Virus record (IMG/VR): IMGVR_UViG_3300019487_000425
Coordinates: 1 to 26,826 of that record
DNA: 26,826 nucleotides
From: a virus
Strand: one strand, 5' to 3'
How positions within the stretch are numbered: position 1 is the stretch's first letter; every line of letters starts with the position of its first letter. Of the stretch, positions 1,711-21,805 are shown one piece after another. The notes below the pieces were generated by a model. The model was not told the origin of the DNA. It saw nothing but the letters and a program-made list of their open reading frames with translations, and ran no database searches. Both the position numbers and the translations under genes were made by a program.

Positions 1711-2322
1711 CTAGCTTGCTGCGAAGTACCAAACGCGCCACGTGCCGGACAGCGTCAGGTTGCCGCTGGCCGTCGGGTTCGTGACGGAGAGGTAGTAGGT
1801 GTTCGTCGATGTGTTCAGCCAGATGTTCACGATTGCCTGCATCTGTGAGCCGGCGGGTACTCCGGCCCGGCGGTGCTCGACCATGAACACCTGCCCCATC
1901 GCCGTCGTGATGCCTGTCGTGAACTGGACCGAACCGTCCGGCGGGATGATGTTCACTGGCGTCAGGTCCACGAACAACAGCTTCAACTTGCTCTGAATGA
2001 CGGCCTGCGCTGCGATTTTCGCCGCGGTCACGGCGGCGTCTCGGATGTGGTCCGTCGTGACGGCCCGGTTCGCGTCCACGGTCGCGTCCTCGCGCAGCTT
2101 GTCCGAGGTCACGGCGTCGTCCTCGATGCGGTCGGTCGGGACCCGGGACCCGGCGACATTCGAGAGCTTGGAGCCGTTGATGGCGGCCCCGACCTTCACG
2201 TTCACGTCCTCGATGTTGCCGTTCACCGCTTGCGTGAGGATCGCGTTGTCGTTCGCCAGCACCTCGGACCCGCGGGCGGGGGTCCCGGCGGTGAGTGGGT
2301 GCGGCAGGGTCACGAGTGCCAT
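1711..2322 (-). CDS. Tail fibre protein with AVTSDKL-type repeats
   Basis: The 203-residue product starts MALVTLPHPLTAGTPARGSE, preceded by AAGGAG seven bases before the ATG and inside the end of the nozzle gene. Residues 10-40 (GSEVLANDNAILTQAVNGNI) resemble the attachment end of many phage fibres. Residues 60-120 hold degenerate repeats of the form DAVTSDKLRE / AVTTDHIRDA / AVTAAKIAAQ, which are typical of trimeric fibre shafts. The last 80 residues are a beta-rich C-terminal domain ending in TWRVWYFAAS. The role is almost certainly structural, with the N-terminus docking to the tail. Which receptor it binds, if any, cannot be told. Confidence 0.75.
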   Translation of the reverse strand: MALVTLPHPLTAGTPARGSEVLANDNAILTQAVNGNIEDVNVKVGAAINGSKLSNVAGSRVPTDRIEDDAVTSDKLREDATVDANRAVTTDHIRDAAVTAAKIAAQAVIQSKLKLLFVDLTPVNIIPPDGSVQFTTGITTAMGQVFMVEHRRAGVPAGSQMQAIVNIWLNTSTNTYYLSVTNPTASGNLTLSGTWRVWYFAAS

Positions 2323-2325
2323 TGG

Positions 2326-4467
2326 TCAGCTCCTTGAGTAGTCGGGCTTCGGCTGCACGACGCCGTCCATGGAGTAGCCGCGGAAGATCATGTCGCCTTC
2401 CGGCTGGGCCACGATGCGCGCGGAGTATCGCTTGCCGGTCGTCCCGATGGGGAGTCCGACGTAGGTGGAGGCGTCTGCGTCCTCTGACCAGTTGAAGGCG
2501 TCCCAGTTCGGGGTGTCCCACACCGCTCCGCTCTGCGATGCGACCAGCGTGGCCGTGACAGACGGCCCACCCTCCACCTTGATCGTCACGCTGGCGGAGA
2601 GGTTCGTGCCGGAGAGGAAGCCCTGGATGCGCTCCCAGTCCTTATCGAGCGTGGGGGCCCCGTCGTCCTTCGTGATCGTCTCGATGACGACCTGCGGTGG
2701 CGAGCCGCCGGTGCCGTTCGCGGCCTTCTGGTCCTTGAACCCGAAGAAGCCGAGCCACACCGGGAAGTCGAAGCCGGCTCCGGCGTCCAGGTCCCGGCGA
2801 TCGATGGCGATGATGGCCTGCGCGTCTCCGAACGCCCCGCCCTTCTGCACGAGGATGTCGGAGAAGAACCAGCCGGTGATGCGGGTCCACGCGCCGAACC
2901 GCTGGTCGTACACGAGCATGTCGTCGTTGTCGGCAGTGGCGCTGGCGAACGAGATGAGGATGTGCTGGCCGAGGTAGTTCTTCACCACCACGTCGCCGAG
3001 TTGCGCGGGCCGGAACGTGTCGAACAGGTGCCCGACCTCGATCCAGCCGAACGGTTCGACGACGTTCCCGCGGATGCGGTGGAAACCAGCGTCTCCCATG
3101 AAGTAGACGGTCGCTCCGATGGCCGCGGCCGCGCGCGGGCCAGCGCAGCCTGCCCCCTTGAACAGCGGGAACGCGCGGAAACTGATGATGTCGTCGCCCT
3201 CCACGGCCCATGTGCTCCACCGCTTGAGCACCACGAGGCGGTCCACTTGGAGCACGACGGCCTTGATGCTGTCGCCGTCGTCCGGGCCGATGTCGCTCGC
3301 CGAGAGCGCGTTCCAGTTGCAGATGCCGGTCGCCTCGATGTCAGCGACCGCCTGCGAGAAGTAGAGCGTCGAACCCGCCCAGCCCACGAGGCGGTCCTTG
3401 TAGGCGATCACGCCGTCCAGGTGCGGCGGCTCGCCGTGCAGGTTCTCGTCGGAGCGGTACCCGAGGTCAGCGTCGGCGATGACATCGTTGTAGGTCGCCC
3501 CGTTCCCGTCGGCGACGAAGTAGAACGGGCCGGCCGCCGTCCCGCCGGCCTTCGTCCGCTCGAGCGTCCAGCCGACGTAGTCGGACCGAATCTCGTCGGG
3601 GATGGTCGTGATCTGGACCTGCGTGTTCACGCCCATCGCGATCGAGTGTGTGTTCGTGGTCGCTCGCCCGGACCCGTGGGTGAACCGATAGCGGAGCCGG
3701 TAGTAGTAGGTGGTGGCGGCCGTGAGCCCGCCGCCCGCGGCGCCGGTGAGCGTCAGTTGGACGCCAGCCGCCGCTCCGGGGCCGTCGTAGGTCACGGTGG
3801 TGCTCGTGGCCGTCGTCTGGCAGTGCGGGACCTGGAACGTGTACGGGGCGGTGCCGAACGTGAGCGTGACCTCGGCGGTGGCCGAGGCGGGCGCCGAGAG
3901 CGTGAGGCTCGGCGCCCCGGCCGCGACCGAGCCGTTGAGCGTGGTGCCGCCAGGGATGCCCGCTCCTGCCACCGCGAGCCCGGTGGGCATCGCCGGGAAC
4001 GCGGGGCGCGGCAGGATGCCCGAGTGCCAGGTGTTAGCCGGGTTGTTCGCGCGGAAGAACATCGGCGGGTTCGCCCCGCCCTGCTCGCACGCGAACAGCG
4101 ACCCGTGAAGCTGGTCCCAGGCGAGCTTCGCCGCCGGCTGGAGCGTGAACGGCACGGTCTGGAGGTTGAACGCGCCAGCCGTCGCCTGGTAGAGCAGTCC
4201 GTTCGTGTCGTCGCAGCCGACGTAGATGCTGCCCGTCCCGGCTGACGACACCCACTCCATGACGCTGTGCGGCTTCTTCGTGAGCGTGGCGGTCGAGAGC
4301 CGCTGCGACCCCTCGCGCACGCGCAACGCCCCGTAGGGCCGGAGCAGCATGTTCTGGATGACGCGCGCGTAGTTGAGGGTCGAGCGCCGCCCGTAGTCCG
4401 AGATGCCTCCGACGATGCCGCCGGCCCAGTTGACCTGCTCGCTCGTGACCCGGCGCGGGACCGGCAC
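2326..4467 (-). CDS. Tail nozzle / stabilisation protein (P22 gp10-like or tubular-B-like)
   Basis: The chosen start is a GTG preceded by GGGGAGAGG, two bases after the adaptor stop. An upstream ATG at 4572 would add an Arg/Pro-rich segment overlapping the adaptor by 100 bases and is unlikely. The 713-residue product is beta-rich. It begins with VNWAGGIVGGISDYG and RVIQNMLLRPYGALRVREGS, a pattern seen at the N-terminus of podoviral nozzle or packaged-DNA-stabilisation proteins. Blade-like repeats follow, including GSTLYFSQAVADIEATG, VDRLVVLKRWSTWAVEGDD and TVYFMGDAGFHRIRGN, which suggest a beta-propeller. The length fits the P22 gp10 and T7 gp12 classes (several hundred residues). Its place right after the adaptor supports a role in closing the tail channel. 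The exact subfamily is uncertain. Confidence 0.75.
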   Translation of the reverse strand: MPVPRRVTSEQVNWAGGIVGGISDYGRRSTLNYARVIQNMLLRPYGALRVREGSQRLSTATLTKKPHSVMEWVSSAGTGSIYVGCDDTNGLLYQATAGAFNLQTVPFTLQPAAKLAWDQLHGSLFACEQGGANPPMFFRANNPANTWHSGILPRPAFPAMPTGLAVAGAGIPGGTTLNGSVAAGAPSLTLSAPASATAEVTLTFGTAPYTFQVPHCQTTATSTTVTYDGPGAAAGVQLTLTGAAGGGLTAATTYYYRLRYRFTHGSGRATTNTHSIAMGVNTQVQITTIPDEIRSDYVGWTLERTKAGGTAAGPFYFVADGNGATYNDVIADADLGYRSDENLHGEPPHLDGVIAYKDRLVGWAGSTLYFSQAVADIEATGICNWNALSASDIGPDDGDSIKAVVLQVDRLVVLKRWSTWAVEGDDIISFRAFPLFKGAGCAGPRAAAAIGATVYFMGDAGFHRIRGNVVEPFGWIEVGHLFDTFRPAQLGDVVVKNYLGQHILISFASATADNDDMLVYDQRFGAWTRITGWFFSDILVQKGGAFGDAQAIIAIDRRDLDAGAGFDFPVWLGFFGFKDQKAANGTGGSPPQVVIETITKDDGAPTLDKDWERIQGFLSGTNLSASVTIKVEGGPSVTATLVASQSGAVWDTPNWDAFNWSEDADASTYVGLPIGTTGKRYSARIVAQPEGDMIFRGYSMDGVVQPKPDYSRS

Positions 4468-4469
4468 GG

Positions 4470-5129
4470 CTACCTCTCCCCGAACGAGGATGGGTAGGGG
4501 CGAAGCCGTGGCCGGCGGTCTGCCGAGCGATCCTCGAACTTCTCGCGGTCGGTGGTCAAGCTCGCGATCCACTCCTGCTCGTGCTCGCGCGCCTTGTCGA
4601 AGCGGTCCAGCGCGCGGAGGCCGTAGATGACCATGCGCTCCTTGAGTGTGTCGCGAGCCGTGTCGCGGATGGTGATGGCCTGCGTCGTCTCGTCAGTCAC
4701 GTTGTCCGGCATCCCCCAGTAGGTGATCTTGCCGCCACCGTCGATCTCTCGGTCCGGTCTCGGATAGAGCCGGAAGGTGTCCGTGAGCGCCAGGTACTTG
4801 CGGGGGTCTCCGCTCGCGAAGGCTCCGTCGGTACCCGCCCGGAACTCGTCCTCGAACATCTCGGCCAACCAGCGCCACGTCTCGCGGTTGGTCGGGGTGT
4901 CGTTCCACTGGAAGGAGACGGACTGGATGCAGTCGTCCGGCATCGCGTACTCGTCGGAGTCCTCGATGTCGAATGTCGCGGTGTGCCTCACGAGCCGGAG
5001 CTTGCGCGCCATGTCGCGCTGGGACTGGTTGAGGATGACGAGCCACTGGGGCCGCTTGAGGCGCGTGAAGGCGGGGTCGCCGATGGCGAGCGCGGCGTCG
5101 TTGATGACATCCAGTGCTGGGACGCTCAT
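4470..5129 (-). CDS. Head-tail adaptor (tubular-A / gp6-like)
   Basis: This 219-residue protein starts MSVPALDVINDAALAIGD. It has the helical opening seen in phage adaptor proteins that dock under the portal (LNQSQRDMARKLRLVRHTAT). A beta section follows with SDEYAMPDDCIQSVSFQWND and KYLALTDTFRLYPRPDREID. The C-terminal helix has alternating acidic and basic residues (RALDRFDKAREHEQEWIASL). This order of helical bundle, strand section and C-terminal helix is typical of adaptor families such as the T7 gp11 type. The gene overlaps the lectin-like gene by ATGA and ends two bases before the nozzle GTG, so the three are translationally linked. Adaptor function is inferred from pattern and synteny. 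Confidence 0.75.
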   Translation of the reverse strand: MSVPALDVINDAALAIGDPAFTRLKRPQWLVILNQSQRDMARKLRLVRHTATFDIEDSDEYAMPDDCIQSVSFQWNDTPTNRETWRWLAEMFEDEFRAGTDGAFASGDPRKYLALTDTFRLYPRPDREIDGGGKITYWGMPDNVTDETTQAITIRDTARDTLKERMVIYGLRALDRFDKAREHEQEWIASLTTDREKFEDRSADRRPRLRPYPSSFGER

Positions 5130-5914
5130 GCCGGGACCCTCGTGAACTTCGTGGTTGGCTTCGCAAGCCTCGTGAACTCGGTACCGAGTCCCCAGCGGTA
5201 CGCTGCGTCAGGCGACGTGCCGGGGCTCGGAACGTTGCCCCACGGCGTCGAGAACACGGGGTCGTAGTAGGCGGCGCGCATCACGCAATCTGTTGGCATC
5301 TTGAACAGGGGAGACCCGAAATCCGGGAAGTCGGGTTCGATCGTGTCCGTGTAGTCGTCGTGGAAGTCGTAGAGGATGTTGGCTGCGGATGGGGCGGTGT
5401 CGGCGAACGTCAGCGTCACTCGTCGGAGACTCAGCCCGGCGCGCGTGAGCCCGTCTCTGCCGTTGAACAGCATGAGGCGCGTCGAGTACCCGGCGTTGGG
5501 GAGCAACGCCCCGCCAGCGCCCGACACTCCTACGGGGGGGGCGTCGTCTATGTTCACGACAAGGTCCCCGGACTCGTCGTAGTCGAACAGCGCCGTGTGC
5601 CATCGAGACGAGTCGGCGAAACGGCTGGGGCCCGTCTGGAACGTGAGCCCGTACCGGGTGACGGCCTTGAGACGCCCAGACGGCGTGATCCCAACCTCGA
5701 AGATCGCTGGCTGCGTCTGGAGATCGTGCGCGAACGAGAAAAGCGGGTGCAGCTCGTCGGCGCTCGCGTTCTGCTGCGCTGGTCGGTCCACGCGGTACTC
5801 GATTCCGACTCCGACGAGGCCGCGGTCCGGTAGCGTGCTGAGATCACCGACGTTCTCCGCGGTGAAGGCGAAGTATGGCTCGCCGAGCGAGCGCACGTAC
5901 CGGAAGTTGCTCAC
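5126..5914 (-). CDS. Concanavalin/laminin-G-like lectin domain protein
   Basis: The start is a GTG sharing four bases (GTGA) with the stop of the upstream exported protein, giving 262 residues. The frame is open further upstream, but that part is antisense noise over the neighbour. Residues 1-160 read as a beta sandwich: LGEPYFAFTAENVGDLST, then GIEYRVDRP, SRWHTALFDYDESGDLVV, YSTRLMLFNGRDGLTRAG and LRRVTLTFAD. The RWHTALFDYD...LVVNIDD stretch matches the usual laminin-G/concanavalin strand where the ligand-bearing face is measured (cf. 'W-H-x-v-a-v-t-x-d'). No signal peptide is present, unlike its two upstream neighbours. Carbohydrate binding is inferred from fold pattern only. The gene continues into the adaptor by ATGA overlap. 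Confidence 0.6.
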   Translation of the reverse strand: MSNFRYVRSLGEPYFAFTAENVGDLSTLPDRGLVGVGIEYRVDRPAQQNASADELHPLFSFAHDLQTQPAIFEVGITPSGRLKAVTRYGLTFQTGPSRFADSSRWHTALFDYDESGDLVVNIDDAPPVGVSGAGGALLPNAGYSTRLMLFNGRDGLTRAGLSLRRVTLTFADTAPSAANILYDFHDDYTDTIEPDFPDFGSPLFKMPTDCVMRAAYYDPVFSTPWGNVPSPGTSPDAAYRWGLGTEFTRLAKPTTKFTRVPA

Positions 5915-7920
5915 AGCTCGTCCGCGAACACCATGCGGTAGAACGGTCGCCGCGCATAGTAGTTGGCGGCCGCGACGCGATTGATCGCCCACTTGAGGAA
6001 CCAGTAGCCAGGGTTCTCGTTGACCGTCACAGGGTCGCTCGTGAACGTCGCCGCCGGCACCGACAGGAACGACAACTCGGTGCGGAAGTTGTGGTAGTAG
6101 GGCCACGGGTCGGCGTGATACCACTTGGGCGTGACCGTGCCCTGGGCGAACTCGTGGTGGTAGGGGTGGGACGCCGCGCTGGGGGCTGTGATCGGGGTCT
6201 CGAACTCGGTGCCGCGCTCCGCGACGGACTTCACGAATCCGCGCTCGGTCATGCCCTGGAGCCAGCCGCGCAGCAGCACGCCGTCCACGGGTCCGTACCA
6301 GATTTTGTTCGAGACCTCGGGCTGGAGCGTCCCGGGTGCGTTCGGGGCGAGTGTCAGGCCGGGGGCGGCCCCGCGCGTCTCGACGTTCACCGCCACGACG
6401 CGGATGCCAGCGGCCCACAGCGTCGTGCCCATGGTATCGGGGTGCGGGAGCGCCCGGCGCGAGTAGCCCTGCGGGAAGTAGTCGCTCTCGGGGGCGTAGC
6501 GGAACCCCAGGACCGCGCCGAACGCATCGACGGCCTGCTGGTTCTCGCGCTTGATGAGGCAGTAGATGGAGGTGTCCTCGGGCGCGCAGGTGTAAGGAGG
6601 CGGCCCCAGCCCCGCATCCCACCAGGTCCGGTTCGATCGCTGGTTCCCCCACGGGTCATCGCCGTTGCCCGACTTGGAGCCGAGCGTCAGTTGGAGGCCG
6701 GCGGTGTTATAGGGGTAGACCTTCCATGTCCCCGCCGGCATCGCCTTCACCCACGCCAGCTCGTTCGGGTAGACGGCGACGGTGTCGGGGTCCACCTGGT
6801 AGCCGATGGACAGTTTCGCCCCGCGCGCCCGCGCGAGGCGCCCGAGCGAGTCGGAGAAGAACCGCTTGAAGTTGTTGCTGTCACACTTGGCCGCGTAGCA
6901 GGGGTATCCGGCGAAGCTCCAGCCGCTCCCGGCGGCGGTGTTCTCGCTGTGGAATCCGACGCCGTGCACGCCGAAGGCGATGCGGCGCGGCTCCCACCCG
7001 GCCCTGGACCCCGTGAGGACCCCTCCGGCGGCCGAGTCCGCCCGGGCGAGCGCCACCTCCCACAGGCTGATGTCGGGGGCTCCGCCCGAGAGCGCGGCCT
7101 CGGCGAAGATGATGGGTGCCGGCTCGACGCTCGAGCGGCCGCGCTCCCATACCACTGCGGTATCGGGGGCGTTGAGATTCGTGGTCGGGATCGGTCCGTC
7201 GTGGTCTGTCGTGTTCGCCACGTCGATGAAGCCGGCGGAGGCATAGCCGACGAGCGCGCGCAGGTATCCGGTCCGCGGCGGGGACGCCCCGGCGCCGTGC
7301 GCCGCGGTGTTGTTCGCGTAGTCGATCGGAGCCCCCACCGAGGACCACGAGTCCCATTCGATGTCGGTGCCGGGGATGAACGCCGTCATCAGGTTGGTCG
7401 GCTGGTTGGCGGGGAAGCCTAAGCCCGTGAAGAACACGGTCACGCCGGTCGAGCAGGAGGCGAGCGAGGCGACCATGGAGTTGCCGGGGAGGCCGGTGCA
7501 GGTGATGAGCACGAGCGGCTTGACCGGCCAGCGCCCGCCCAGGGTGAGCGAGTCGATGTTGACCGTGCCATTGAACACATTGTTGACCGACTGGCCGGAG
7601 CGCCAGCCCCACACCACCACCAGGTCGTACTGCCGGACCCCCGACCGCTGCGTGTTGCCGAAGTCCGCCATGATGGGGACGTGCGCCTGACGTATCCATT
7701 CGGTCCTCAACTGGCGCATCTCGTACTCGTCCACCGTCCAGCCCATCTTGTCCATGATGCCGCGGAGGTAGGAGAGGTTCTGGTTCTCGGCGAACGCGCC
7801 GCCGGCGGTGCCGTTGTGTGGCATCCGCACGAACATCGCACGCGCGGGCTCCTGGGCGGTCGCGGCGAGCGGCAGGAACGGCAGGAGCAGCAGGGCGAGG
7901 CGGCCGAGCAGGCGGCGCAC
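5911..7920 (-). CDS. Large Sec-exported protein of unknown function (669 aa)
   Basis: The GTG start gives a textbook signal peptide: MRRLLGR, a Leu-rich core LALLLLPFLPLAA, then ATA before QEP, with cleavage likely after residue 22. The mature part has six Cys in three close pairs (141/156, 341/346, 445/454), as expected of disulfides in an exported protein. Residues 45-160 read like an alpha/beta domain, with VRQYDLVVVWGWRSG and KPLVLITCTGLPGNS. Residues 312-395 (RRIAFGVHGVGFHSEN, then RLARARGAKLSIGYQVD) vaguely recall TIM-barrel or polysaccharide-deacetylase-like enzymes. Residues 585-611 are His/Tyr/Trp-rich (ASHPYHHEF, KWYHADPWPYYHNF). No family is recognised with certainty. It lies inside a virion operon, which is odd for an exported protein. 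A glycan-active enzyme is speculation. Confidence 0.75.
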   Translation of the reverse strand: MRRLLGRLALLLLPFLPLAATAQEPARAMFVRMPHNGTAGGAFAENQNLSYLRGIMDKMGWTVDEYEMRQLRTEWIRQAHVPIMADFGNTQRSGVRQYDLVVVWGWRSGQSVNNVFNGTVNIDSLTLGGRWPVKPLVLITCTGLPGNSMVASLASCSTGVTVFFTGLGFPANQPTNLMTAFIPGTDIEWDSWSSVGAPIDYANNTAAHGAGASPPRTGYLRALVGYASAGFIDVANTTDHDGPIPTTNLNAPDTAVVWERGRSSVEPAPIIFAEAALSGGAPDISLWEVALARADSAAGGVLTGSRAGWEPRRIAFGVHGVGFHSENTAAGSGWSFAGYPCYAAKCDSNNFKRFFSDSLGRLARARGAKLSIGYQVDPDTVAVYPNELAWVKAMPAGTWKVYPYNTAGLQLTLGSKSGNGDDPWGNQRSNRTWWDAGLGPPPYTCAPEDTSIYCLIKRENQQAVDAFGAVLGFRYAPESDYFPQGYSRRALPHPDTMGTTLWAAGIRVVAVNVETRGAAPGLTLAPNAPGTLQPEVSNKIWYGPVDGVLLRGWLQGMTERGFVKSVAERGTEFETPITAPSAASHPYHHEFAQGTVTPKWYHADPWPYYHNFRTELSFLSVPAATFTSDPVTVNENPGYWFLKWAINRVAAANYYARRPFYRMVFADEL

Positions 7921-7922
7921 GG

Positions 7923-8747
7923 CTACTGCCTCGCCGCCAACAGGTCGATCGTGACGAACATCGGCTTGCCCACCGGCATCGCGGTCGGGGGCGAAGCGTC
8001 GAAGTAGAAGTCGATCGTCCTGACCCGCAGCCCGAAGAAGTCACCCACGAGCGGTTGCCCGTCCCGGCCGATCAGGTCCACCTCGCGCGTGTAAATCTGG
8101 TAGTGGCGGTTGGCACCCGTCCCCAGCGGGCCGGCGACGTTCGGCCACACGAACACGAACTCTCCGTGGTCGGGGTTGGAGCCGAGCGGGCGCAGCGCCT
8201 CGGTCATGGAACCGGCCGAGTCCACCGCGCTCGATGCCGCCCCCCCCGTGGGGGACCGCCGCCAATCCACCTTGACCATGCCCGACGTCGTGTCCCACAC
8301 GGCGGAGGTGTTGAACCGCGGCTGGAACCCGAAGTGGATGGTGAAGATCGAGTCCATCGCCGTGCGCGTGACCGTATAGGCTGGGGTGACGTTGCAGAAC
8401 TCGGTCGGGGCCGCCCCGGCCGTGTTCGGTGCGGCGACGCGGACGCGGAGCCGGAGCCGGGTGTAGCCACGCACGTCGTAGAAGCCGGACGAGTCGAAGT
8501 CCACGATGTTGGCGCAGGCGTTCCCGTCCCCGAAGATGTTGCTGATGATGTTCGGCTGGAGCAGGCGGAAGTCGCGGTCTCGTGACTGCTCGTTGACCGG
8601 GAACCCGCCGGCGCCGAGGCGCGGCGCGTTGTTCTTGCCGTTGCTGTCCACCCAAATCGGAACGACGGGCTGCTGGCCGATCGCCGGAGCAGGAAGAAGC
8701 GCCGCTCCGAGCGCGGCGAATAGAGCGAGCGCACAGAGACGGCGCAT
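7923..8747 (-). CDS. Sec-exported beta-rich protein of unknown function (274 aa)
   Basis: The ATG at 8747 follows AAGGAGACAGACAC, a strong ribosome binding site, and fixes the start. The open frame upstream overlaps the decoration gene antisense and is noise. The product begins MRRLCALALFAALGAALLPA, then PAIG before QQP, so a signal peptide is likely cut after residue 24. The mature protein is beta-rich (YTRLRLRVRVAAP, DSIFTIHFGFQPRF, GMVKVDWRR, PMFVTIDLLAARQ) with two Cys at 78 and 118 that could form one disulfide. The segment NRHYQIYTREVDLIGRDGQP looks like a jelly-roll or virion-protein edge. It is paired with the 669-residue exported protein, two bases apart. Function is unknown; a partner or carrier of the larger protein is a guess. 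Confidence 0.75.
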   Translation of the reverse strand: MRRLCALALFAALGAALLPAPAIGQQPVVPIWVDSNGKNNAPRLGAGGFPVNEQSRDRDFRLLQPNIISNIFGDGNACANIVDFDSSGFYDVRGYTRLRLRVRVAAPNTAGAAPTEFCNVTPAYTVTRTAMDSIFTIHFGFQPRFNTSAVWDTTSGMVKVDWRRSPTGGAASSAVDSAGSMTEALRPLGSNPDHGEFVFVWPNVAGPLGTGANRHYQIYTREVDLIGRDGQPLVGDFFGLRVRTIDFYFDASPPTAMPVGKPMFVTIDLLAARQ

Positions 8748-8775
8748 GTGTCTGTCTCCTTCGTGGTGCGGGGCG

Positions 8776-8795
8776 GGCGGGGCCGGAGCCCCGCC
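8776..8795 (-). terminator. GC hairpin with UNCG-type loop between decoration and exported-protein genes
   Basis: The minus-strand RNA can form a perfect 8-bp stem, GGCGGGGC with GCCCCGCC, closed by UCCG, a member of the very stable UNCG tetraloop class. It lies in the only sizeable gap (74 bases) within the structural genes. No U-tract follows, so it may be a partial terminator, an RNA end-stabiliser or a processing barrier that sets capsid/decoration expression above that of the exported proteins. Confidence 0.5.
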
Positions 8796-8821
8796 TGCGT
8801 CCGCGGTCGTGCTGCTGGCTG

Positions 8822-9370
8822 TCAGATCGTCGCCGCCCCGACGTCCACGAGGACGCCCATGCGGGTTGCGACACCCGTGTCCGTCGCGCCGCCGGTCGCG
8901 CCGGACGGCTTCATCACGAGACCCAGGTTCTTCGAGGGGGCCGTGTTGCCGGCCGCCGAACTGACCGCGAGGCCAGCCGTGGTGGTGGGTGCGGCGAGGT
9001 GCCCGAGCGTGCCGGTCGTGCCGGCCACCCGGACGGTGACGATGCTGCCCTGGCTCGCGATGACGACCTGCTCGCCGATCGCGGCCGCGTTCAGGGCCAC
9101 GCCGAGGAGCGCACGATCGAAGCTGCCAGTCGTGATCATCGGTCGTGCCGTGAGCAGGTTCGACACCGGCGTCGCCGTCGCGGCCAGGTTGTCCGCCTGG
9201 ATGATGAAGGTGCCGGGGTCTGCGGCGAGTCCGTCCGACTGCGTGATCGCCACCGCCTTGCAGATGGCGGTGCGGACGACGCCGAGCCACCCGGCCCCTT
9301 GCCACAGCACCGTCGTCCCGTCAGGGCCGATCACCCGGAGGGGAATCTCGAACTGCGAGGACTGCTGCAT
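8822..9370 (-). CDS. Head decoration-like protein (DUF2190-like pattern)
   Basis: The 182-residue product starts MQQSSQFEIPLRVIGPDGTT. Its ATG follows a long purine run (AAAGGAGGGAGGAGCC). The second half alternates small strands and Gly/Ala/Val: ALNAAAIGEQVVIASQGSIV, TVRVAGTTGTLGHLAAPTTT, AGLAVSSAAGN and TGVATRMGVLVDVGAATI. This resembles the DUF2190-type capsid-decorating or stabilising proteins often found beside the major capsid gene. It is 15 bases downstream of the capsid gene, and the strong ribosome binding site suggests high expression. Decoration is the favoured role; a minor head-tail protein is an alternative. Confidence 0.6.
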   Translation of the reverse strand: MQQSSQFEIPLRVIGPDGTTVLWQGAGWLGVVRTAICKAVAITQSDGLAADPGTFIIQADNLAATATPVSNLLTARPMITTGSFDRALLGVALNAAAIGEQVVIASQGSIVTVRVAGTTGTLGHLAAPTTTAGLAVSSAAGNTAPSKNLGLVMKPSGATGGATDTGVATRMGVLVDVGAATI

Positions 9371-9385: not shown

Positions 9386-10438
9386 TCAGATGGTGAGGAC
9401 GGTCGACGTGTCCACGTTGCTGATGCAGCCCGAGCTGCGACGCTCGTTGAAGCACAGCTCCGTGCGATGGAAGATGTAGCCCACGCGCGCGTCCTGGTCG
9501 TAGGCTTCGCGCCACCCCTTCCAGGCGAACTTGCGGGCCGGGTGCGTGTAGAGCGACACCGCGCGCTCGTCGATGAGGTAGACCTTCTCGATGTTGGTCG
9601 CGCTGTGCGGCGCGCGCTCGTCCACCACCCACGCGGCGTTGCGGTACATGAGGTTCGTGAATCCGGCCTTCGCCATGTCCGTCTGCTGCTGCGGCCGGTC
9701 GTACCGCTCGTTCTTCGCGATGGAGTTGTGGTAGTCGGTCCACGCACCCCAGTTGGAGACGATGAGCGTCGGTGTCTTGCCCGACCGGAAGCCGCACTTC
9801 GCGAACATGGTGCCCACCGGGCCCTGCGCTCCGGCCAGCGGGGCTCCCATGAACGTCCCGGCCGCGCCGGTCGTGTAGGGGCCGGTGTTGTCGCTGTTCG
9901 GCTGCCACCACCCGTTCGGGTCGGCCGCGACCGGCGTGCCGCCACAGGGGATGCCGCCGTAGGTCTGTGTCGCGCCCACGATGTTGTCCGGGAGCGCGAG
10001 CTGGAGCCCGCCGATCGCCTTCGCGTTCGACCCGTTGTTGAACAGGGCCGTGCCCACGAGGTCCCGCATCGTGTCCTCGGCGATCTGCATCTTCGAGTCC
10101 AGCAGGTTCAGCACGGCGTTCGGACCGTTCGCCGCCAGCTCCTCGTCCCCGTCGATGGCGAGCGTGACCTCCGCGTTCTTCGCGAAGTAGTTGGCCGCCT
10201 TGATCGGGTTGCGGATGGTGGTGTCGAACTTGTCCGTGCCGGAGTACCAGGCTCCGCCTCCGCCCTCGGGCGCGAACCCGAGCGGCACGACGAGAACCGG
10301 GCCGCCCTGCCACTCGCGCTGCTTCGGCTTCCAGCGCATGAGCAGAGCATTCGAGAGGAAGAACTGGTCGGCCAGCTTCGCGACGTGCTTGTTGCGCGTC
10401 AGCGAACTGACCTGATCCCAGTTGATGGTGTACGCCAT
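9386..10438 (-). CDS. Major capsid protein
   Basis: The 350-residue protein starts MAYTINWDQVSSLTRNKHVA. Its ribosome binding site is one of the strongest in the window (AAGGAAGGAGAGG, seven bases before the ATG). The pattern is that of HK97-fold coat proteins of this size. An N-terminal helix (KLADQFFLSNALLMRWKPKQ) is followed by a strand block (GGPVLVVPLGFAPEGG), an acidic spine-helix-like part (VTLAIDGDEELAANG, LLDSKMQIAEDTMRDLVGTA) and a C-terminal strand section (KVYLIDERAVSLYTHPARKF). It is flanked by the scaffold-like gene upstream and the decoration-like gene downstream, the canonical order. The Gly-rich insert around residues 160-200 could be a surface loop. Family assignment below 'major capsid' is not possible by eye. 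Confidence 0.85.
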   Translation of the reverse strand: MAYTINWDQVSSLTRNKHVAKLADQFFLSNALLMRWKPKQREWQGGPVLVVPLGFAPEGGGGAWYSGTDKFDTTIRNPIKAANYFAKNAEVTLAIDGDEELAANGPNAVLNLLDSKMQIAEDTMRDLVGTALFNNGSNAKAIGGLQLALPDNIVGATQTYGGIPCGGTPVAADPNGWWQPNSDNTGPYTTGAAGTFMGAPLAGAQGPVGTMFAKCGFRSGKTPTLIVSNWGAWTDYHNSIAKNERYDRPQQQTDMAKAGFTNLMYRNAAWVVDERAPHSATNIEKVYLIDERAVSLYTHPARKFAWKGWREAYDQDARVGYIFHRTELCFNERRSSGCISNVDTSTVLTI

Positions 10439-10506: not shown

Positions 10507-11277
10507 TCACGTGTATTTGCCGAGCGAAGCGGCCTCCCCCGTTGCGAGCATGTGTTCGGAGATGTCGTTGTAGCCCCCGTCGCGGGTGACGGTGTGCTTC
10601 CACGGCTTCGGTGCCGCGGGACCGGCCGCTCCGGGTGCCCCGAGGATTCCGTCGCTCCCGTCCCCCCCGCGCGGCGTCTGCGGCGTGGGCGAGGTGCGGA
10701 GCCGGTCGGCGAGGTGCGGGAGGCGGCGAGTCGCGGCCTCCTCGAATCCCATGCCGCCGCTGACCAGGTCGGGGTTCCCCTGCATGTAGACGATGGTGGC
10801 CTTCGTCTCCTCGGGCGTCATCTTGTATTTGCCGACCGTGGAGGCGATGGAGTGCTCGAGCGCCGAGATCGCGTCCTGCTGCTCGCGCTCCTCGGCGGCC
10901 TTCGCGCGCTGCTCGTTCTCGGCCTTGAGGCGGGCGTTCTCCGCGCGCAGGTCCTTGACCTCCTGCGGCGTCTCGTCGTCGTCCGGGTCGGGCTCGTCGC
11001 GCAGCTCTTTCGCGGCGGTCTTGACCGCCTTGGCGACGATGCCCTCGATGTCGTCCGCCGTCAGGTCATCGAAGTCCTCCTCGCCGTCGGGGTCCCCGGC
11101 GGGATCGGGCTCGGGGTCCTTCGGCGGGTCAGCCTTGGGCTCGGGCTTCGGTGCGGGATCGGTCCCGGCCTTCGGCTGCGGCTCGGGGTCCGGCTTCTCC
11201 GCTGGCTTCGGGGGGGCGTCCGCGCCCTCGAAGGTGCCGAGTGCGTTCAGGTCGATGTCCTGGGGCTCGTCGAACAT
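10507..11277 (-). CDS. Scaffold protein
   Basis: The preferred start is the ATG at 11277 preceded by GGGGTGAGAG, giving 256 residues. A GTG three codons earlier overlaps the previous stop (GTGA) and is an alternative. The N-terminal third is a Pro/Glu/Asp/Lys-rich disordered tail (PKPEPKADPPKDPEPDPAG). Next comes an acidic stretch (GEEDFDDLTADDIEGIVAKA), then a coiled coil (VKDLRAENARLKAENEQRAK) between about residues 110 and 150. The C-terminus is basic-aromatic (KPWKHTVTRDGGYNDI). A disordered acidic start with a central coiled coil directly upstream of the capsid gene is the usual signature of phage scaffolds. No protease domain is visible. Confidence 0.8.
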   Translation of the reverse strand: MFDEPQDIDLNALGTFEGADAPPKPAEKPDPEPQPKAGTDPAPKPEPKADPPKDPEPDPAGDPDGEEDFDDLTADDIEGIVAKAVKTAAKELRDEPDPDDDETPQEVKDLRAENARLKAENEQRAKAAEEREQQDAISALEHSIASTVGKYKMTPEETKATIVYMQGNPDLVSGGMGFEEAATRRLPHLADRLRTSPTPQTPRGGDGSDGILGAPGAAGPAAPKPWKHTVTRDGGYNDISEHMLATGEAASLGKYT

Positions 11278-11282
11278 GGCTC

Positions 11283-11594
11283 TCACCCCTGCATGTACGA
11301 GGCGCCTTCCGGCTCCTCGTTCACGGGTTCGGTTCCGGCGGCGACCCCGAACGGTTCGGTCTCGTCGCTGATCCCCTGCTGCGCCTGTGCGGCGGCAGCT
11401 TGGGCCTGGTGCTGCGCTCCGATGGCCTGCAACCCGCCCATGAGACGCTGGATCTCACGAATCTCGTCGGGCGAGATGATGCGGTCGGCGCCGACGGTGG
11501 CGAGGATGGCGTCCACGTGTTCGGAGAGCGCCTGCGGGCGCTGGTCGGGGCCGGGGTCGGCGAAGTAGCCGCCCGGCTGGTCGAGGTTCGCCAT
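11283..11594 (-). CDS. Small Ala/Gln-rich protein between portal and scaffold
   Basis: The ATG at 11594 shares one base with the preceding stop (TGATG), giving 103 residues starting MANLDQPGGYFADPGPDQRP. Residues 25-80 are predicted helical (SEHVDAILATVGADRIISPD, then IREIQRLMGGLQAIGAQHQA) with an Ala/Gln run, followed by an acidic C-terminus (EPVNEEPEGASYMQG). The family is not recognised. Small helical proteins at this place are sometimes scaffold or portal helpers. Start and stop overlaps with both neighbours support it as a real coupled gene. Confidence 0.7.
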   Translation of the reverse strand: MANLDQPGGYFADPGPDQRPQALSEHVDAILATVGADRIISPDEIREIQRLMGGLQAIGAQHQAQAAAAQAQQGISDETEPFGVAAGTEPVNEEPEGASYMQG

Positions 11595-11845
11595 CACTTG
11601 CCTCGCTTCTTGCGGACGCGGAGACGCTTCGACTTCGACATCTCGCGCGACTGCGCGCGCGCTTCGGCCTTGCCGCCCTTCGCCTGCATGGCGTGGACGG
11701 CGGCGGCGGCGCTCTTGATGTGTGAGCCGTATCCGTGCACCTTCGTCTCCCGGTCCCATTCGCGGACCTTCGCGGCGCCACCCAGCGCGCGAGTGCCCGC
11801 CGGGGTGTGCGCCCACCTCTGTTGACGACGACTAGCGTAGGGCAT
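11594..11845 (-). CDS. Small basic phage protein (MPYxSxxQQRW type)
   Basis: This 83-residue, very basic protein starts MPYASRRQQRWAHTPAGTRA and ends in RLRVRKKRGK. The N-terminal pattern MPxxSxxQRRxxH with a later VREWDRETK matches a common family of small phage proteins usually found near the portal or capsid genes, whose function is not established. Net charge suggests nucleic-acid or acidic-protein contact. It begins 14 bases after the portal stop, and its own stop overlaps the next ATG by one base. The frame stays open upstream over the portal gene, but that part is not coding. Confidence 0.75.
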   Translation of the reverse strand: MPYASRRQQRWAHTPAGTRALGGAAKVREWDRETKVHGYGSHIKSAAAAVHAMQAKGGKAEARAQSREMSKSKRLRVRKKRGK

Positions 11846-11859
11846 GGCCGTCCCCCGCC

Positions 11860-13689
11860 TCAAGCCGCCCGGCCGGCGGGCTTCGCCGAAGCGGTCGCCT
11901 GCGCCTGAATCTGCGCCTGAGCCGCGAGTCGCTGGAGGATCACGGGGATGTTCGGCACGCCCATCTTCTCGAGGGCGGTTTGCTGGTCGATGAGCCCGGC
12001 CTGGGCGAGCCCGAGGTACTTCTCCTCGTTCATGGCTCGGCCGAGCGCGGTGCCGGAGCCCTGGGCGAAGCGGATGTCGTACTCGTAGCAGAGCCACGCC
12101 GGGTCCACGGCGGCGGTCTGGCCGTTCGACGCCCGGAAGTAGATGGGACCCTTGGCCTTCCGGCCGGTCGCCACCATCATCTTCTTCAATAGCCGCGCGT
12201 ATTCGGTGAACGCCGGCCCCTCCTTGCCGCGGATGCGGGTCTGCGCCGCTTGCTGGAGGTTCTCGATGGCTTTGGCGGCCTCGATTCCCACGGGCCGGCG
12301 CCCCTGCTGCACGTCGTGGACCCCCGAGACGGTGTCCATGTCCCGCTGCTCGAGCGCCAGCATCTCGAACTGGTGGCTCTGCGCGCCGTGGAACTCCATC
12401 CAGCGGATATCCGAGCCGCGGATCTTCTTGAGCACGTCGCCCGGCAGCACCGTGCGCTGGTCGATGTCGATGCCGGTGTCGTTGTCGGCGACGAGGACGG
12501 GGACGGACTCGTACTCGAGGGAGCGGTTCAGGAGGTTGTAGCGCCGGTTGATGCTGCGGTTGATCGGGATGACGTGGTCCTGCTCGCCGGGGCCGTAGAA
12601 GCGCCCGGCTTGCGCGTAGTCGCGGCCGATCTCGATGGGGGCCCCGAGGAAGCACGGGTCGAGGGGCTTCGCATCGAGCATGAGTCCGCTGGCGGTGAAC
12701 GGGACGGAGAACCAGCCCGACTCGCAGTAGGGCTCGTGGTTGACGTAGTTACGCATCGACGGCGTGTGCACGAAGCCCTCGCCGGTCGGGTTCGGTTCGG
12801 CGATGTCCCCGGTGTAGTGGACCGACATGAGGCGCCGGTCCCGGAAGAACCCGTGCACGACGAAGGTGGTGCCGGCGGACTCCTGCTTGTCGAACCCCGA
12901 GGGGATGAGCGCGCGCCCGCCGCCCGGGTCGGGCTCGTTCTCCAGGTGGAAGGAGCCGGAGACGATCTTGTCGAGGCCCGAGTAGTCGCCGGACATGCCG
13001 TAGGCGTCGAAGTAGGGCTTCTCGAGCACGTCGTAGGACGGCGAGGCGATGTTGTCCGAGAAGATGCGGTCGGCGGCCTTAGGGTAGCGTTCCCGGAGCC
13101 ACGAGGTCGGCACGGGGCGCGCGAGGAAGAAGTATTCCATCTCGTCCTCGTGCCGTGCGCCCGGGGACGGGTAGAAGTCGAACGTGAGGAACGGCTTCGG
13201 CCAGCAGATGCCGGTCTCCGGGTCCACGACGAGCAGGTGGACGCACCAGCCGTACTTCAACTTCTCGCGCGTGTTCACGTGGTGGTTCACGTCGAACTCG
13301 GTGGTGTCCATGCACCACTGCGCGTATTCCTGGATGGCAGAGACTTCCTTCTCCTGGTACTGCCGGCGCGGGATGATCTCCGGCCTCGGCTTCATCTCGG
13401 TCATCACCGGGTGGACGGTCTCGACCGTGGAGAAGCACAGGTTCGTGACCTTCATGGTCCGGTTCTGCTCGGCGGTGAGGTAGTGGAAGCCGGAGTAATA
13501 CAGCTCCAGGAGCTTGAGGCGTTCCTGCTCCGGGCGCTTGGCGGTGTACGCCTCGCGGAATCGGTCGAAGAACCAGCCTTGGAAGTCCTCGGTGCTCATG
13601 CCGCGGAGCGGGTCGATCTCTGGCTCGAGACGGTTGTGGGCGATGAACCAGCGGCCGCCCCCGAGGCTCTTGGAGAACAGGTTCGGCAT
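11860..13689 (-). CDS. Portal protein
   Basis: The 609-residue product starts MPNLFSKSLGGGRWFIAHNR. Clip/stem-like features are seen in order. There is an N-terminal helix (EDFQGWFFDRFREAYTAKRP), then strand blocks (CVHLLVVDPETGICWPKP; TFDFYPSPGARHEDEMEYFF). Next is the helical segment DHVIPINRSINRRYNLLNRS (371-390). The signature tunnel region SGVHDVQQGRRPVGIEAAKA (455-474) follows, then IENLQQAAQTRI, a hallmark pattern in podoviral portals. The C-terminus is an Ala/Gln-rich helix (RLAAQAQIQAQATA), as in P22-type barrels. The size fits short-tailed phage portals (about 500-730 residues). Its place between the terminase block and scaffold is canonical. Confidence 0.85.
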   Translation of the reverse strand: MPNLFSKSLGGGRWFIAHNRLEPEIDPLRGMSTEDFQGWFFDRFREAYTAKRPEQERLKLLELYYSGFHYLTAEQNRTMKVTNLCFSTVETVHPVMTEMKPRPEIIPRRQYQEKEVSAIQEYAQWCMDTTEFDVNHHVNTREKLKYGWCVHLLVVDPETGICWPKPFLTFDFYPSPGARHEDEMEYFFLARPVPTSWLRERYPKAADRIFSDNIASPSYDVLEKPYFDAYGMSGDYSGLDKIVSGSFHLENEPDPGGGRALIPSGFDKQESAGTTFVVHGFFRDRRLMSVHYTGDIAEPNPTGEGFVHTPSMRNYVNHEPYCESGWFSVPFTASGLMLDAKPLDPCFLGAPIEIGRDYAQAGRFYGPGEQDHVIPINRSINRRYNLLNRSLEYESVPVLVADNDTGIDIDQRTVLPGDVLKKIRGSDIRWMEFHGAQSHQFEMLALEQRDMDTVSGVHDVQQGRRPVGIEAAKAIENLQQAAQTRIRGKEGPAFTEYARLLKKMMVATGRKAKGPIYFRASNGQTAAVDPAWLCYEYDIRFAQGSGTALGRAMNEEKYLGLAQAGLIDQQTALEKMGVPNIPVILQRLAAQAQIQAQATASAKPAGRAA

Positions 13690-14664: not shown

Positions 14665-14882
14665 GCCACGCTCGGGGGTGGGGTGCTGCGCCTGAACTTC
14701 CGGCCCACGCTGGCCTTCTGGCAGGCGGGGCAGCGGTCCCGGCCCTTCGTGATGGCGACGAACGCCGTCACCCGGAACCCGCACAGCGCGATCGGCCATG
14801 TGGTGTGGGGGACGATGTGGATGATGGGGTCGCCGAGGGCGGCCTTGCCGAGCATGTCGCTGGGTTCGACTTCGGTGTGCAT
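14661..14882 (-). CDS. 73-aa zinc-ribbon-like protein (DUF3039-like pattern)
   Basis: The ATG overlaps the terminase stop by one base (TAATG). The protein starts MHTEVEPSDMLGKAALGDPI and has His22 and His26, then ALCG (Cys34) and CPAC (Cys51, Cys54). The pattern H-x(n)-ALCG-x(16)-CxxC resembles DUF3039-like and other short phage/actinobacterial zinc-ribbon proteins. The tail is basic (RKFRRSTPPPS). The position right after the terminase, in a coupled chain, suggests co-expression with packaging functions. The biochemical role is unknown. Confidence 0.65.
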   Translation of the reverse strand: MHTEVEPSDMLGKAALGDPIIHIVPHTTWPIALCGFRVTAFVAITKGRDRCPACQKASVGRKFRRSTPPPSVA

Positions 14883-16672
14883 TACCGATACCCCCCGAGA
14901 CCGTCCCGCAGCGCCGCTCTCTCGCGGCGATCCTTGTCGTCGTCCAGCCTGACGATCTCGTCGATGGTGAGTTGCCCGAGGTCGATGTCCTCCTCGGGGA
15001 TGCCCATGCTCCGCCGCACCTGATTCTCATGGTACAAGGCGAGCGCCCGGTTCGTCACCTCGAGCGGCAGCGGGGCGAGTTGGGCGTCGGCGGAGCCCAT
15101 GTGACTGTAGAGGGCCATCGCGAAGGCGCTGGTGCCGTCCAGGAAGCCGCCCTTCGGGTGATCGGCCCGGTCCCTGCCGTTCGCCAGCCGCTCGTAGTAC
15201 GCCTCGGAGAACTCCTTCAAGAGATTGGGGTCCAGGCACCGCCCGGCGTGCTCGCGGACGTAGCGGCGGGGCAGGTTGAACAGTCCCTCCCGGTTCTCGC
15301 CGGTGGTGAGGATGCCGGGCTTGTCCGACACCTGCCGGGCGACAGACTCCTCGTTCACCCGGCGGTAGTGGATGTTCGGGTAATGGATGCGGCGCAGCAG
15401 CTCGTCGAAGAACAGGATGCCGTGGTTGTTCGCTTCCCCGGCGATCTTCGCGGTGTTGTACCACCACGAGATGAGCGCCGCCGCGTGTGCGAGCTGGTCG
15501 GGCGGGAGGCGAGCGTAGAACACGGCATCCACGTCGAGGGTCATGCGGTTCAAGACGATGCCGGGGGTGTAGTCGCCGCCCGGGTCTCCCGAGGCGATGT
15601 CCCAGCCGGAGATGTAGGAGTGTCGGGGCTGCGGGGGCCGGTAGATGCGCCAGCGGCCGCCGGGGACGACCCGGATGTTGACGCCCTTCTTGTCGTCCGG
15701 GTCGCGCTCGATCTCGACTTCTGGCGGGAGCGCGCCATCGTCCTTAGCGGCGGTGTATTCCTCGAGGTAGCGCGGGAGCCCGGCGTCGAACACGCGCCGC
15801 CCCGAGGCGAGGAAGCAGGTGACGGGGTCGCTCGCGTACTCCTGGTCCATGAGGTTCTGGTCGCCGTTCAGTTTGTTCTCTCGCGTGCTGATGTACCACG
15901 CGATCTGCTCGAGGGAGAGGTTGTGGTCGGCGACGAGTTTGGCGTCGTGCGCCGACAGGTCTCTGGCGTCGAACCACGGGTGCATCCGATACGCCTTCTC
16001 CTCGAACCACGGGGAGAAGAACGGGACCCAGTCGTTCTTCTTGGCGACGGCGTTGACCCATAGGTTGTGGAAGTAGTTGCCGATACCGTTCGGGGTGCTC
16101 TCGGCGACGATGAGCGAGTCGGGGTCGTCGGGGGCGGTCTGGAGCAGAGCGGCCATCATGGCGTCGGCGTCCTCGATGAACGCCAGTTCGGAGATGTGGA
16201 GGTACTGGGCGGTCATGCCGCGGCCGCCGGCGGCGACGACCTGCATCCGCGAGTTGTTGTGCGCGAAGTCGATGAGCTTCTTGGTCGCGTATCGGGTCGG
16301 CGGCCTCACGCTCGTGGGCAGCTCGTCGTAGAACCGCTTCGACATCTTGAAGATGCGGTCCACCGAGTCGAGGTCGTGCGCGATGACCAGCGCGCTCCGG
16401 TCCGGGCGCGTGTGGCACATGCGGAACAGTTCCGCCTCGACGACCGTGGAGCAGCCGACTTGGCGGCCTTTCAGGACGACGACCTTCGGGGGGCGCCCCT
16501 GTCGGCGCTCGTGGTCGATGGCGGCGAGGAGCCGGTTCTGTTCCGGCTTCGGGACGAACGGGATGGGTCCTAGCGCGGCCTGCTTCGGGACGATGCGGAT
16601 GCACTTCTCGAAGTAGAGGGCTCGGTTCTCGCCCAGGGCCTCGAGCGTGACGGGAGCGGTGCGCCTAGCCAT
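14882..16672 (-). CDS. terL: Terminase large subunit (packaging ATPase/nuclease)
   Basis: This 596-residue protein, starting MARRTAPVTLEALGENRALY, cuts concatemeric DNA and drives it into the head. The ATPase domain has a deviant Walker A, KGRQVGCST (68-76), and Walker B YLHISELAF (157-165, catalytic Glu162). A coupling motif, VAESTPNG, lies at 189-196. The nuclease domain has the acidic set expected of an RNase-H fold: GWDIASGD (Asp358), GEANNHG (Glu413) and GFLDGTSAFA (Asp512). The length is typical. It begins 8 bases before the end of the preceding small gene and ends in a TAATG overlap with the next. Catalytic residues are assigned from motif position, not structure. Confidence 0.93.
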   Translation of the reverse strand: MARRTAPVTLEALGENRALYFEKCIRIVPKQAALGPIPFVPKPEQNRLLAAIDHERRQGRPPKVVVLKGRQVGCSTVVEAELFRMCHTRPDRSALVIAHDLDSVDRIFKMSKRFYDELPTSVRPPTRYATKKLIDFAHNNSRMQVVAAGGRGMTAQYLHISELAFIEDADAMMAALLQTAPDDPDSLIVAESTPNGIGNYFHNLWVNAVAKKNDWVPFFSPWFEEKAYRMHPWFDARDLSAHDAKLVADHNLSLEQIAWYISTRENKLNGDQNLMDQEYASDPVTCFLASGRRVFDAGLPRYLEEYTAAKDDGALPPEVEIERDPDDKKGVNIRVVPGGRWRIYRPPQPRHSYISGWDIASGDPGGDYTPGIVLNRMTLDVDAVFYARLPPDQLAHAAALISWWYNTAKIAGEANNHGILFFDELLRRIHYPNIHYRRVNEESVARQVSDKPGILTTGENREGLFNLPRRYVREHAGRCLDPNLLKEFSEAYYERLANGRDRADHPKGGFLDGTSAFAMALYSHMGSADAQLAPLPLEVTNRALALYHENQVRRSMGIPEEDIDLGQLTIDEIVRLDDDKDRRERAALRDGLGGYR

Positions 16673-19979: not shown

Positions 19980-20771
19980 TCACTCGCCCGCGTAGTAGAA
20001 GATGTTGGCGATGCCGATCGCCGGGGCGTTGCCGCCGGTGCTGCCGTTGGAGACGACGCACTGGGGCCCGGTGAACGCGGTCTCGTTGACGCCGCTGGTC
20101 GAGTTGTGGATGGAGAGCCCTTCCTGGACGTCGTAGACGACGAGGGACATCGTGCTCTGGTTCGCCCACGCGATGAGTTCGACCAGGAACATGCGGCCCG
20201 CGGCGAGCACGGGCGGGCTGAAGGCGCCGCCGGTGATGGCGATCTTGTTCCGGGCCCCGCCGCTGGCCCGGGAGACGGCGTTCAGGACATTGGCGCCGTC
20301 CACGGTGTCGTGCATGAGCCCGAAGTAGTTGCTCGCGGCGATGGCCGTGGAGTCGGCCGAGGCCATGTTCGAGCCCGCGAGGTCCGACAGCCCGCAGAAG
20401 AACCGCGAGGTGTTGTCGGGCCACGTCTCGATGCGGAACGTGAACGAGCAGTAGAACCCGCCGATAGCTAGTTTGTCGCCTAGGGCGGTGGTGTGTACCG
20501 AGCCCTGGACTCCGCGCACGAAGGGGAAGTCGGCTGCGGCATTGAACCGGACCCCGGCGACGTTGTTCGGGGCTCCGGCGGTGACGGTGTGGATGCGGCG
20601 CCGGTACTGGGTCGTGACGCCGAGCGCGGGGGTCGCGAACGTCGAAGCAGTGTCCTCCTGGAACACCGGACCGATCGGGGTGCTGCGGGCGGCGGTGTCG
20701 GCGGGCATGTAGAGGCCCATCGAGCGATACCGCTCGAGGCCGAGCTGGTAGGGGTGTCCGAGTTTCGGCAT
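19980..20771 (-). CDS. Receptor-binding-like tail protein (263 aa)
   Basis: The ATG shares one base with the previous stop (TGATG). The product starts MPKLGHPYQLGLERYRSMGL and is rich in beta strands. GVTTQYRRRIHTVTAGAPNN comes first, then GGFYCSFTFRIETWPDNTSR, FFCGLSDLAGSNMASADSTA, NYFGLMHDTVDGANVLNAVS and STMSLVVYDVQEGLSIHNST, ending in AIGIANIFYYAGE. The alternation of short strands and Gly/Asn/Ser loops is what jelly-roll receptor-binding or carbohydrate-binding tips look like. The FRIETWPDNTSRFFCGLSD stretch recalls fibre proteins that carry a 'phage tail fibre C-terminal' domain. It follows a beta-helix tailspike-like gene, making a two-part receptor unit. The family is not certain. Confidence 0.65.
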   Translation of the reverse strand: MPKLGHPYQLGLERYRSMGLYMPADTAARSTPIGPVFQEDTASTFATPALGVTTQYRRRIHTVTAGAPNNVAGVRFNAAADFPFVRGVQGSVHTTALGDKLAIGGFYCSFTFRIETWPDNTSRFFCGLSDLAGSNMASADSTAIAASNYFGLMHDTVDGANVLNAVSRASGGARNKIAITGGAFSPPVLAAGRMFLVELIAWANQSTMSLVVYDVQEGLSIHNSTSGVNETAFTGPQCVVSNGSTGGNAPAIGIANIFYYAGE

Positions 20772-21805
20772 CAGTGACCCATCCTTGTCGGGTGGCCGGC
20801 GGAGAACACCTTCGAGTGGTGCACCGAGCGGTTGTCCGTGGGCGGGCCAGGCTGGTCCACGTAGTAGATGTCCTCGATGCGGTTGCCACTGCCGCGCTCG
20901 TCAAACTGCGCGTTCCGGCCGCCGGGGTAGTTCTCGACCCGGATGTTGTGCGCGTGCCAGCCGTTACAGGAGGCCCCTTCGAGCCAGCGCGGGATGCCCA
21001 AGGGGACTCCGCCCGAGAGCGACTGGACGAAGTTGCAGTTCTTGATCTCACCGATGTTGCAGGTGCTCAAGGCGAACGCCGAGGTCGTGAACGCGACGCT
21101 CGACTCGAAGTCCACCTGTTCGATGGTGCAGTCGATGACGCTCTCGAGTTGCATCTCGTGGTAGAGGGCGGGGTCGGCGTAGCCGTTCTGTTCGACGGAG
21201 CCCCGTATCCAGTGTCCGCAGGTGAGGCTCTGGCGGACGTACCAGCCGTTCTTCGCGTTGGCGACGGCGGAGCAGCATTCGAAGCCGAGCGTGGTGTTGG
21301 GGTAGAGGGAGTCGGTGGAGTCCACGAGCCAGCCGTGGCCTAAGCAGAACGCACTGGTGACGTGCCGGAAGGTGGTGAGCCAGGTGCCATCGATCTCGAC
21401 GCCGTTCTCGGGGCCGTCACCGGCACCCTGGAACGTGGCTCCGATGACGAGGTTCGAGATGAGGTTCCGGGGCATGTTGGCGAAGCCTAAGGCGGGGTTC
21501 CGCTTAAGCCGGAGCGCGTAGGGCCTTCCGGCTCCGCGGATCGCCATGTCGTGGATGCTGGTGCGCTGGGCGAACGTCGTGACCTTCCCCAGCACCTCGG
21601 TCCCCTCTCCGTCCCCGCACAGTTCGATCCACGGGTGGTTGATCGTGATGTCGGTGTCCCACACCCCCTTCTGGAGCCACAACCGCACGCCGCCGCGGAA
21701 GTCCGCCGAGTCGGAGGTCGCGAGGCCGTCCAGGATGCGCTGCAACTGCTCCGTCTCGCTCACCCGCCACGTCGTGACCGCGTGGTCCCCGAGCCCCGGC
21801 CTCAC
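20771..21805 (-). CDS. Right-handed beta-helix tailspike-like protein (344 aa)
   Basis: The GTG start overlaps the previous stop by GTGA. The opening VRPGLGDHAVTTWRVSETEQ with LQRILDGLATSDSADFRGGV is typical of pectate-lyase-like spikes: an index helix and then a 'ggtvyLp.G.y'-like strand (GVRLWLQKGVWDTDITINHP). Repeated turns follow: GVEIDGTWLTTFRHVTSAFC, NTTLGFECCSAVANAKNGWY, ESVIDCTIEQVDFESSVAFT and STCNIGEIKNCNFVQSLSGG. N and C stacks (NIGEIKNCNF) fit a parallel beta helix. No catalytic triad can be assigned by eye. It may depolymerise or bind a surface glycan. It is short for a complete tailspike, so part of its role may be shared with the next gene. Confidence 0.75.
   Translation of the reverse strand: MRPGLGDHAVTTWRVSETEQLQRILDGLATSDSADFRGGVRLWLQKGVWDTDITINHPWIELCGDGEGTEVLGKVTTFAQRTSIHDMAIRGAGRPYALRLKRNPALGFANMPRNLISNLVIGATFQGAGDGPENGVEIDGTWLTTFRHVTSAFCLGHGWLVDSTDSLYPNTTLGFECCSAVANAKNGWYVRQSLTCGHWIRGSVEQNGYADPALYHEMQLESVIDCTIEQVDFESSVAFTTSAFALSTCNIGEIKNCNFVQSLSGGVPLGIPRWLEGASCNGWHAHNIRVENYPGGRNAQFDERGSGNRIEDIYYVDQPGPPTDNRSVHHSKVFSAGHPTRMGH

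Follow-up and report, generated by a model that had tools for sequence, protein, structure and literature searches.

The DNA analysed here (the window) is a 26.8-kb virus fragment, IMG/VR virus record IMGVR_UViG_3300019487_000425, positions 1-26,826. Its minus strand carries the late genes of a tailed phage with an SU10/P22-type portal and adaptor, in the order terminase, portal, scaffold-like gene, capsid, decoration, P274, P669, P262 and adaptor (Table 1). A sequence-only reading had singled out the adjacent genes for proteins of 274 and 669 residues, P274 and P669, as lying after the capsid and decoration genes, and their coordinates, lengths, N-termini and position proved to be correct, both genes being on the minus strand. 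The capsid gene was assigned by profile, and the decoration gene by position, by 33-66% identity in five relatives and by a sub-threshold match to Phage_cement_2. From this gene order, P274 and P669 would be expressed late. We refer to the interval between the decoration gene and P262 as the slot. Elsewhere in the window, a gene on the strand opposite the late genes (24479-25525, +) encodes a DUF3560 domain (E 1e-29) and has a primase-like phrog match. Upstream of the terminase, a 377-aa frame (20771-21904, -) with relatives in two related contigs (L002 and L003) gave a weak right-handed beta-helix match below the curated cut-off, and its product is possibly a tailspike-like protein.

Table 1. 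Features of the late region of the window and the equivalent hairpins of its relatives
Feature	Position	Strand	Remarks
Large terminase	14882-16672	-	
P22/SU10-type portal	11860-13689	-	PF16510, E 5e-9
Scaffold-like gene	10507-11286	-	
Major capsid protein	9386-10438	-	profile phrog_9953, E 1e-37
Decoration/cement-like gene	8822-9370	-	182 aa; upstream border of the slot
GC-rich RNA hairpin	8768-8804	-	between decoration gene and P274; 8-bp perfect inner stem, no T-run, z -3.1
P274	7923-8747	-	274 aa; predicted exported
P669	5911-7920	-	669 aa; predicted exported
P262	5126-5914	-	conserved (30-49% in L002-L005), without signal peptide; downstream border of the slot
SU10-type adaptor	4470-5129	-	PF24175, E 3.5e-17
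Virion protein	2326-4572 at most	-	732-748 aa
Tail fibre gene	1711-2322	-	
Hairpin in L002	11654-11698		
Hairpin in L003	11676-11731		
Hairpin in L004	11633-11671		
Hairpin in L005	11610-11663		
Hairpin in L006	6419-6475		

P274 begins at an ATG with a strong Shine-Dalgarno sequence, GAAGGAG, upstream. Its frame stays open farther upstream (460 aa), and two observations support the ATG as the start, namely the Shine-Dalgarno site and the alignment with it of the start of the homologue in the related contig L006. P669 begins two bases past the P274 stop at a GTG that is the first possible start in its frame, leaving no earlier start as an alternative to the one that gives the signal peptide; at its other end P669 overlaps P262 by four bases. 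Third-position GC was 0.91 for P274 and 0.93 for P669, and their codon usage correlated with that of the pooled structural genes at 0.96 and 0.98, respectively, the structural genes correlating with one another at 0.94-0.99. Codon usage is thus native to the phage, and these features support both as real genes.

To score signal peptides, we used a home-made measure that combines the charge of the n-region, a hydrophobic core of 10 uncharged residues and the presence of a small-x-small site. P274 scored 4.57 and P669 4.52, and among the 727 start codons followed by at least 80 open codons on the two strands of the window they were the only ones to reach 4.3, a cut-off chosen once the scores were known. 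The same value was reached by 8 of 4571 starts in four related contigs, mostly in shadow frames, and among 201 greedy gene calls from the window and related loci none apart from the pair scored above 3.88. In both proteins the predicted signal peptide comprises residues 1-22. For P274, it reads MRRLCALALFAALGAALLPAPA before a predicted cut between APA and IGQQ (or after G24), leaving a mature part of ∼250 aa; for P669, it reads MRRLLGRLALLLLPFLPLAATA, with the predicted cut between ATA and QEPA.

Capsid-based scans yielded five related virus contigs, L002-L006, and in one of them, L006, a search for the pair elsewhere succeeded. This 8.8-kb contig has the order capsid, decoration, a 265-aa protein and a protein of at least 516 aa, within whose gene it ends; the order and the place are those of the window. 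The 265-aa protein is 26% identical to P274 (E 2e-9, single comparison) and the longer one 26% identical to P669 (E 1e-14). Compared with the capsid (66% identical between the window and L006) and the portal (56%), the two families have thus diverged down to 26%, a rapid divergence that agrees with proteins acting at a surface. The L006 homologues scored 4.85 and 4.60, and all four N-termini have the layout of a type I signal peptide, with a charged n-region, a hydrophobic core and a small-x-small site near residue 20-25. The textbook signal peptides that had been claimed for both proteins are the top-scoring starts of the window, and each of the four proteins that make up the two families has one. 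The suspicion that homologues might start inside the mature part did not hold, since the L006 proteins begin with signal peptides of their own and show no inner start; export thus appears to be conserved and the inner start unused. On this evidence, P274 and P669 are very probably exported by the infected cell. A random hydrophobic N-terminus in GC-rich DNA, in which frames readily encode Leu, Ala and Val, or a misassembly in what is a contig of a virus fragment, could in principle mimic such a pair. This explanation is highly improbable, being contradicted by an independent contig with the same order in strongly diverged sequence and by signal-peptide scores that are outliers. Because the same pair occupies the same place in a distantly related phage, we take it to be a real, maintained feature, which in the collections searched is known from these two examples.

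We next considered where the exported proteins might end up. A lipobox, defined as [LVI][ASTVI][GAS]C at the end of the signal peptide (PMC11893012), was absent from the N-termini of P274 and P669; the sole near-N-terminal cysteine of P274, C5, lies inside the n/h-region, and P669 has no cysteine before C141. Nor was a strong membrane segment found in either mature part. The lack of a lipobox and of a second strong membrane segment argues for a soluble end point, which would be the periplasm, the cell surface or the medium. The motif RRL stands at or adjoining the start in all four N-termini, so the Tat route is formally possible, and the strongly hydrophobic core favours Sec.

P669 had also been said to carry three close cysteine pairs. 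These are present (141/156, 341/346 and 445/454), and the argument built on them is weak: the cysteine density is ordinary, with 6 in 669 residues compared with 7 in 609 for the portal, and half of the cysteines are kept in the L006 homologue, namely C156, C445 and C454. The last two retain their spacing of 9. A C445-C454 disulphide is plausible, and this conserved close pair fits an oxidising compartment.

Database searches yielded no relative of known function. Single-protein scans of viral contigs with P274 and P669, and of genome contigs with P669, found no relative. A DNA motif scan for the region ADS..GG.L.G....W.P gave 7 matches, among which L006 was the only true relative. Likewise, neither tblastn searches of phages with P274, P669 and the two L006 homologues nor one of plasmids with P669 gave a match. 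Neither P274 nor P669 matched a family among protein-family profiles and PDB sequences, and profiles built from the aligned window and L006 pairs matched PDB sequences at chance level only. A similarity of P274 to DsbM (E 0.005, 53 residues) disappeared with a profile search and was taken as chance. Among the glycan enzymes that had been suggested as a possible function, polysaccharide deacetylase (NodB, PF01522), prompted by motif-like words in the two proteins, gave no Pfam match up to E 10, and its alignment by hhalign stayed at the level of unrelated controls, a comparison of weak power with a query profile of two rows. AlphaFold models were unusable (pLDDT 33 for P669 alone; 29 for residues 265-669 with the L006 row) because there were too few homologues.

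The other four relatives, L002-L005, are contigs of 32-47 kb, of which L002-L004 are also G001-G003, and neither the P274 nor the P669 family has a match anywhere in them. In the same place, between the decoration gene and P262, L002-L004 hold a family of 428-454 aa (∼36% mutual identity) and L005 a 157-aa protein, all without a signal peptide and without significant similarity to P274 or P669. L002 has in its slot an additional 219-aa frame (11666-12325) after the decoration gene; its product weakly matches decoration proteins from the other contigs (29%, E 0.02), and it is perhaps a duplicated decoration gene. Three further relatives (L008, L010 and L013) end before the slot, and another (L018) has distant downstream genes only. 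In a tree of capsid and portal, L005 and L006 fell together, and the window formed a separate group with L002, L003 and L004; occurrence of the pair thus does not track the tree. The unrelated proteins in the slot of four relatives and the patchy occurrence of the pair on the tree indicate an exchangeable accessory slot. With two examples, the pair may be ancestral and replaced several times or may have passed between lineages. The claim that such a function is not usual at this locus holds within the clade, where four of the five relatives with a readable slot hold other, signal-peptide-free proteins.

A GC-rich hairpin lies directly 3' of the decoration gene in all six phages. Its sequence differs in each; mostly it has an 8-11-bp stem with a 4-5-nt loop, and it lacks a T-run (z -1.8 to -3.8 in the five relatives). 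It is a possible attenuator or RNA-processing element, and, standing where the capsid module gives way to the slot, it may lower or separate the expression of the slot genes.

The position of P274 and P669 among virion genes, and the fact that in L002-L004 a signal-peptide-free protein of 428-454 aa stands in their stead, would suit parts of the particle. The hydrophobic N-terminus would then stay uncleaved, or would serve as a membrane anchor on meeting the host, and the pair would replace a slot protein that is perhaps a surface fibre or decoration in its own right. However, each of the four N-termini shows the complete n-h-c arrangement and a small-x-small site, a layout that is rare in these phages, and P274 and P669 are dissimilar to the slot proteins of the relatives. 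We therefore regard virion proteins as improbable.

Host-lysis aids had been among the functions suggested for the pair: proteins that, once exported, would finish lysis by weakening the envelope or cell wall. Their late position agrees with this, as does the finding of no endolysin-like match inside the window. In Stenotrophomonas phage BUCT555, whose capsid protein is remotely related, an annotated holin and endolysin lie between the capsid genes and the pre-tail-fibre genes, so envelope-acting genes can lie between capsid and later structural genes; those are annotated as holin and endolysin, both small proteins, whereas P274 and P669 showed no similarity to phage records. On the other hand, L002, L003 and L004 have an M15-type/phrog_894 endolysin-like gene at a long distance downstream of the slot, where the equivalent sequence would lie beyond the edge of the window; its presence weakens a lysis role for the pair. 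Relatives lacking the pair must also lyse without it, and neither protein matched an endolysin family or had the lipoprotein or membrane-anchored layout of spanins, which need a lipobox or a paired membrane segment. Lysis is therefore not favoured, and we rate it a minor possibility, on a par with the virion alternative.

Patchy occurrence in a slot would also be expected of cargo for the host, of the moron or lysogenic-conversion type, that plays no part in the lytic cycle. In lambdoid phages (lambda, Stx), most accessory genes, such as the exported lom and bor, sit in the late region (PMC3430580), and like the pair as we read it these act on the host cell rather than the particle. P274 and P669 differ from them in showing no sequence relation that we could find and in lying inside a capsid-connector operon of a clade that shows no integrase: the window and the four longer relatives yielded neither an integrase nor a resolvase. 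The pair also lies on the coding strand of the operon and has the native codon usage described above. Cargo is therefore slightly less probable still than either of the two preceding alternatives.

Taken together, we propose that P274 and P669 form a late, Sec-exported accessory cassette of two proteins that acts on the host envelope and occupies an exchangeable slot, a proposal for and against which we consider the chances evenly balanced. The cassette, flanked by the capsid/decoration module on one side and the connector genes on the other, would be produced together with the late virion proteins; cleavable signal peptides would let both products leave the cytoplasm, most likely via Sec, and they would alter or cover host surface structures late in infection, such that sister phages or fresh progeny fail to re-adsorb. 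The sequences support the two genes, their signal peptides, the conserved pair with its order and the exchange in the slot, whereas export itself, late timing and the final location of the proteins are inferred. By analogy with known systems, modification of the surface or of a receptor is the most likely function, although we advance it as a tentative one.

Superinfection exclusion is a reasonable inference, as it has precedents. The cor genes of N15, phi80 and Rtp adjoin tail fibre genes and encode exported exclusion proteins described as lipoproteins (PMC4936722), so exported phage proteins encoded beside virion genes have been described. P274 and P669 differ from Cor in having no lipobox, in being larger and in being placed after the decoration gene, and the missing lipobox places them outside the exclusion lipoproteins of the Cor or Lpp type. 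This lowers a claim to membership; the two proteins could still work in a similar way. To our knowledge, at 669 residues the larger protein far exceeds the exclusion proteins known.

Somewhat more probable than that specific function, yet short of an even chance, is that the two new families constitute a dedicated secreted phage pair, coexpressed with the capsid, acting outside the cell and swapped against a probable virion protein that takes up the slot in phages of otherwise collinear gene order. Such a pair may mask or alter the surface or may work in the medium. Late operons of tailed phages normally encode parts of the particle, and the conserved exported pair suggests that, in some phages, part of late translation goes into proteins with a task outside it. 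The two families have no relative of known function, and the collinear phages with and without the pair provide a natural comparison.

A scan of genomes with the large terminase, made in search of the host, returned remote Firmicutes sequences only (29-32% identity). In L004, the large terminase matches in two pieces within 2136-4682, residues 2-73 and 75-596, which lie ∼760 bases apart; an intron, an intein or an inserted gene could account for this split.
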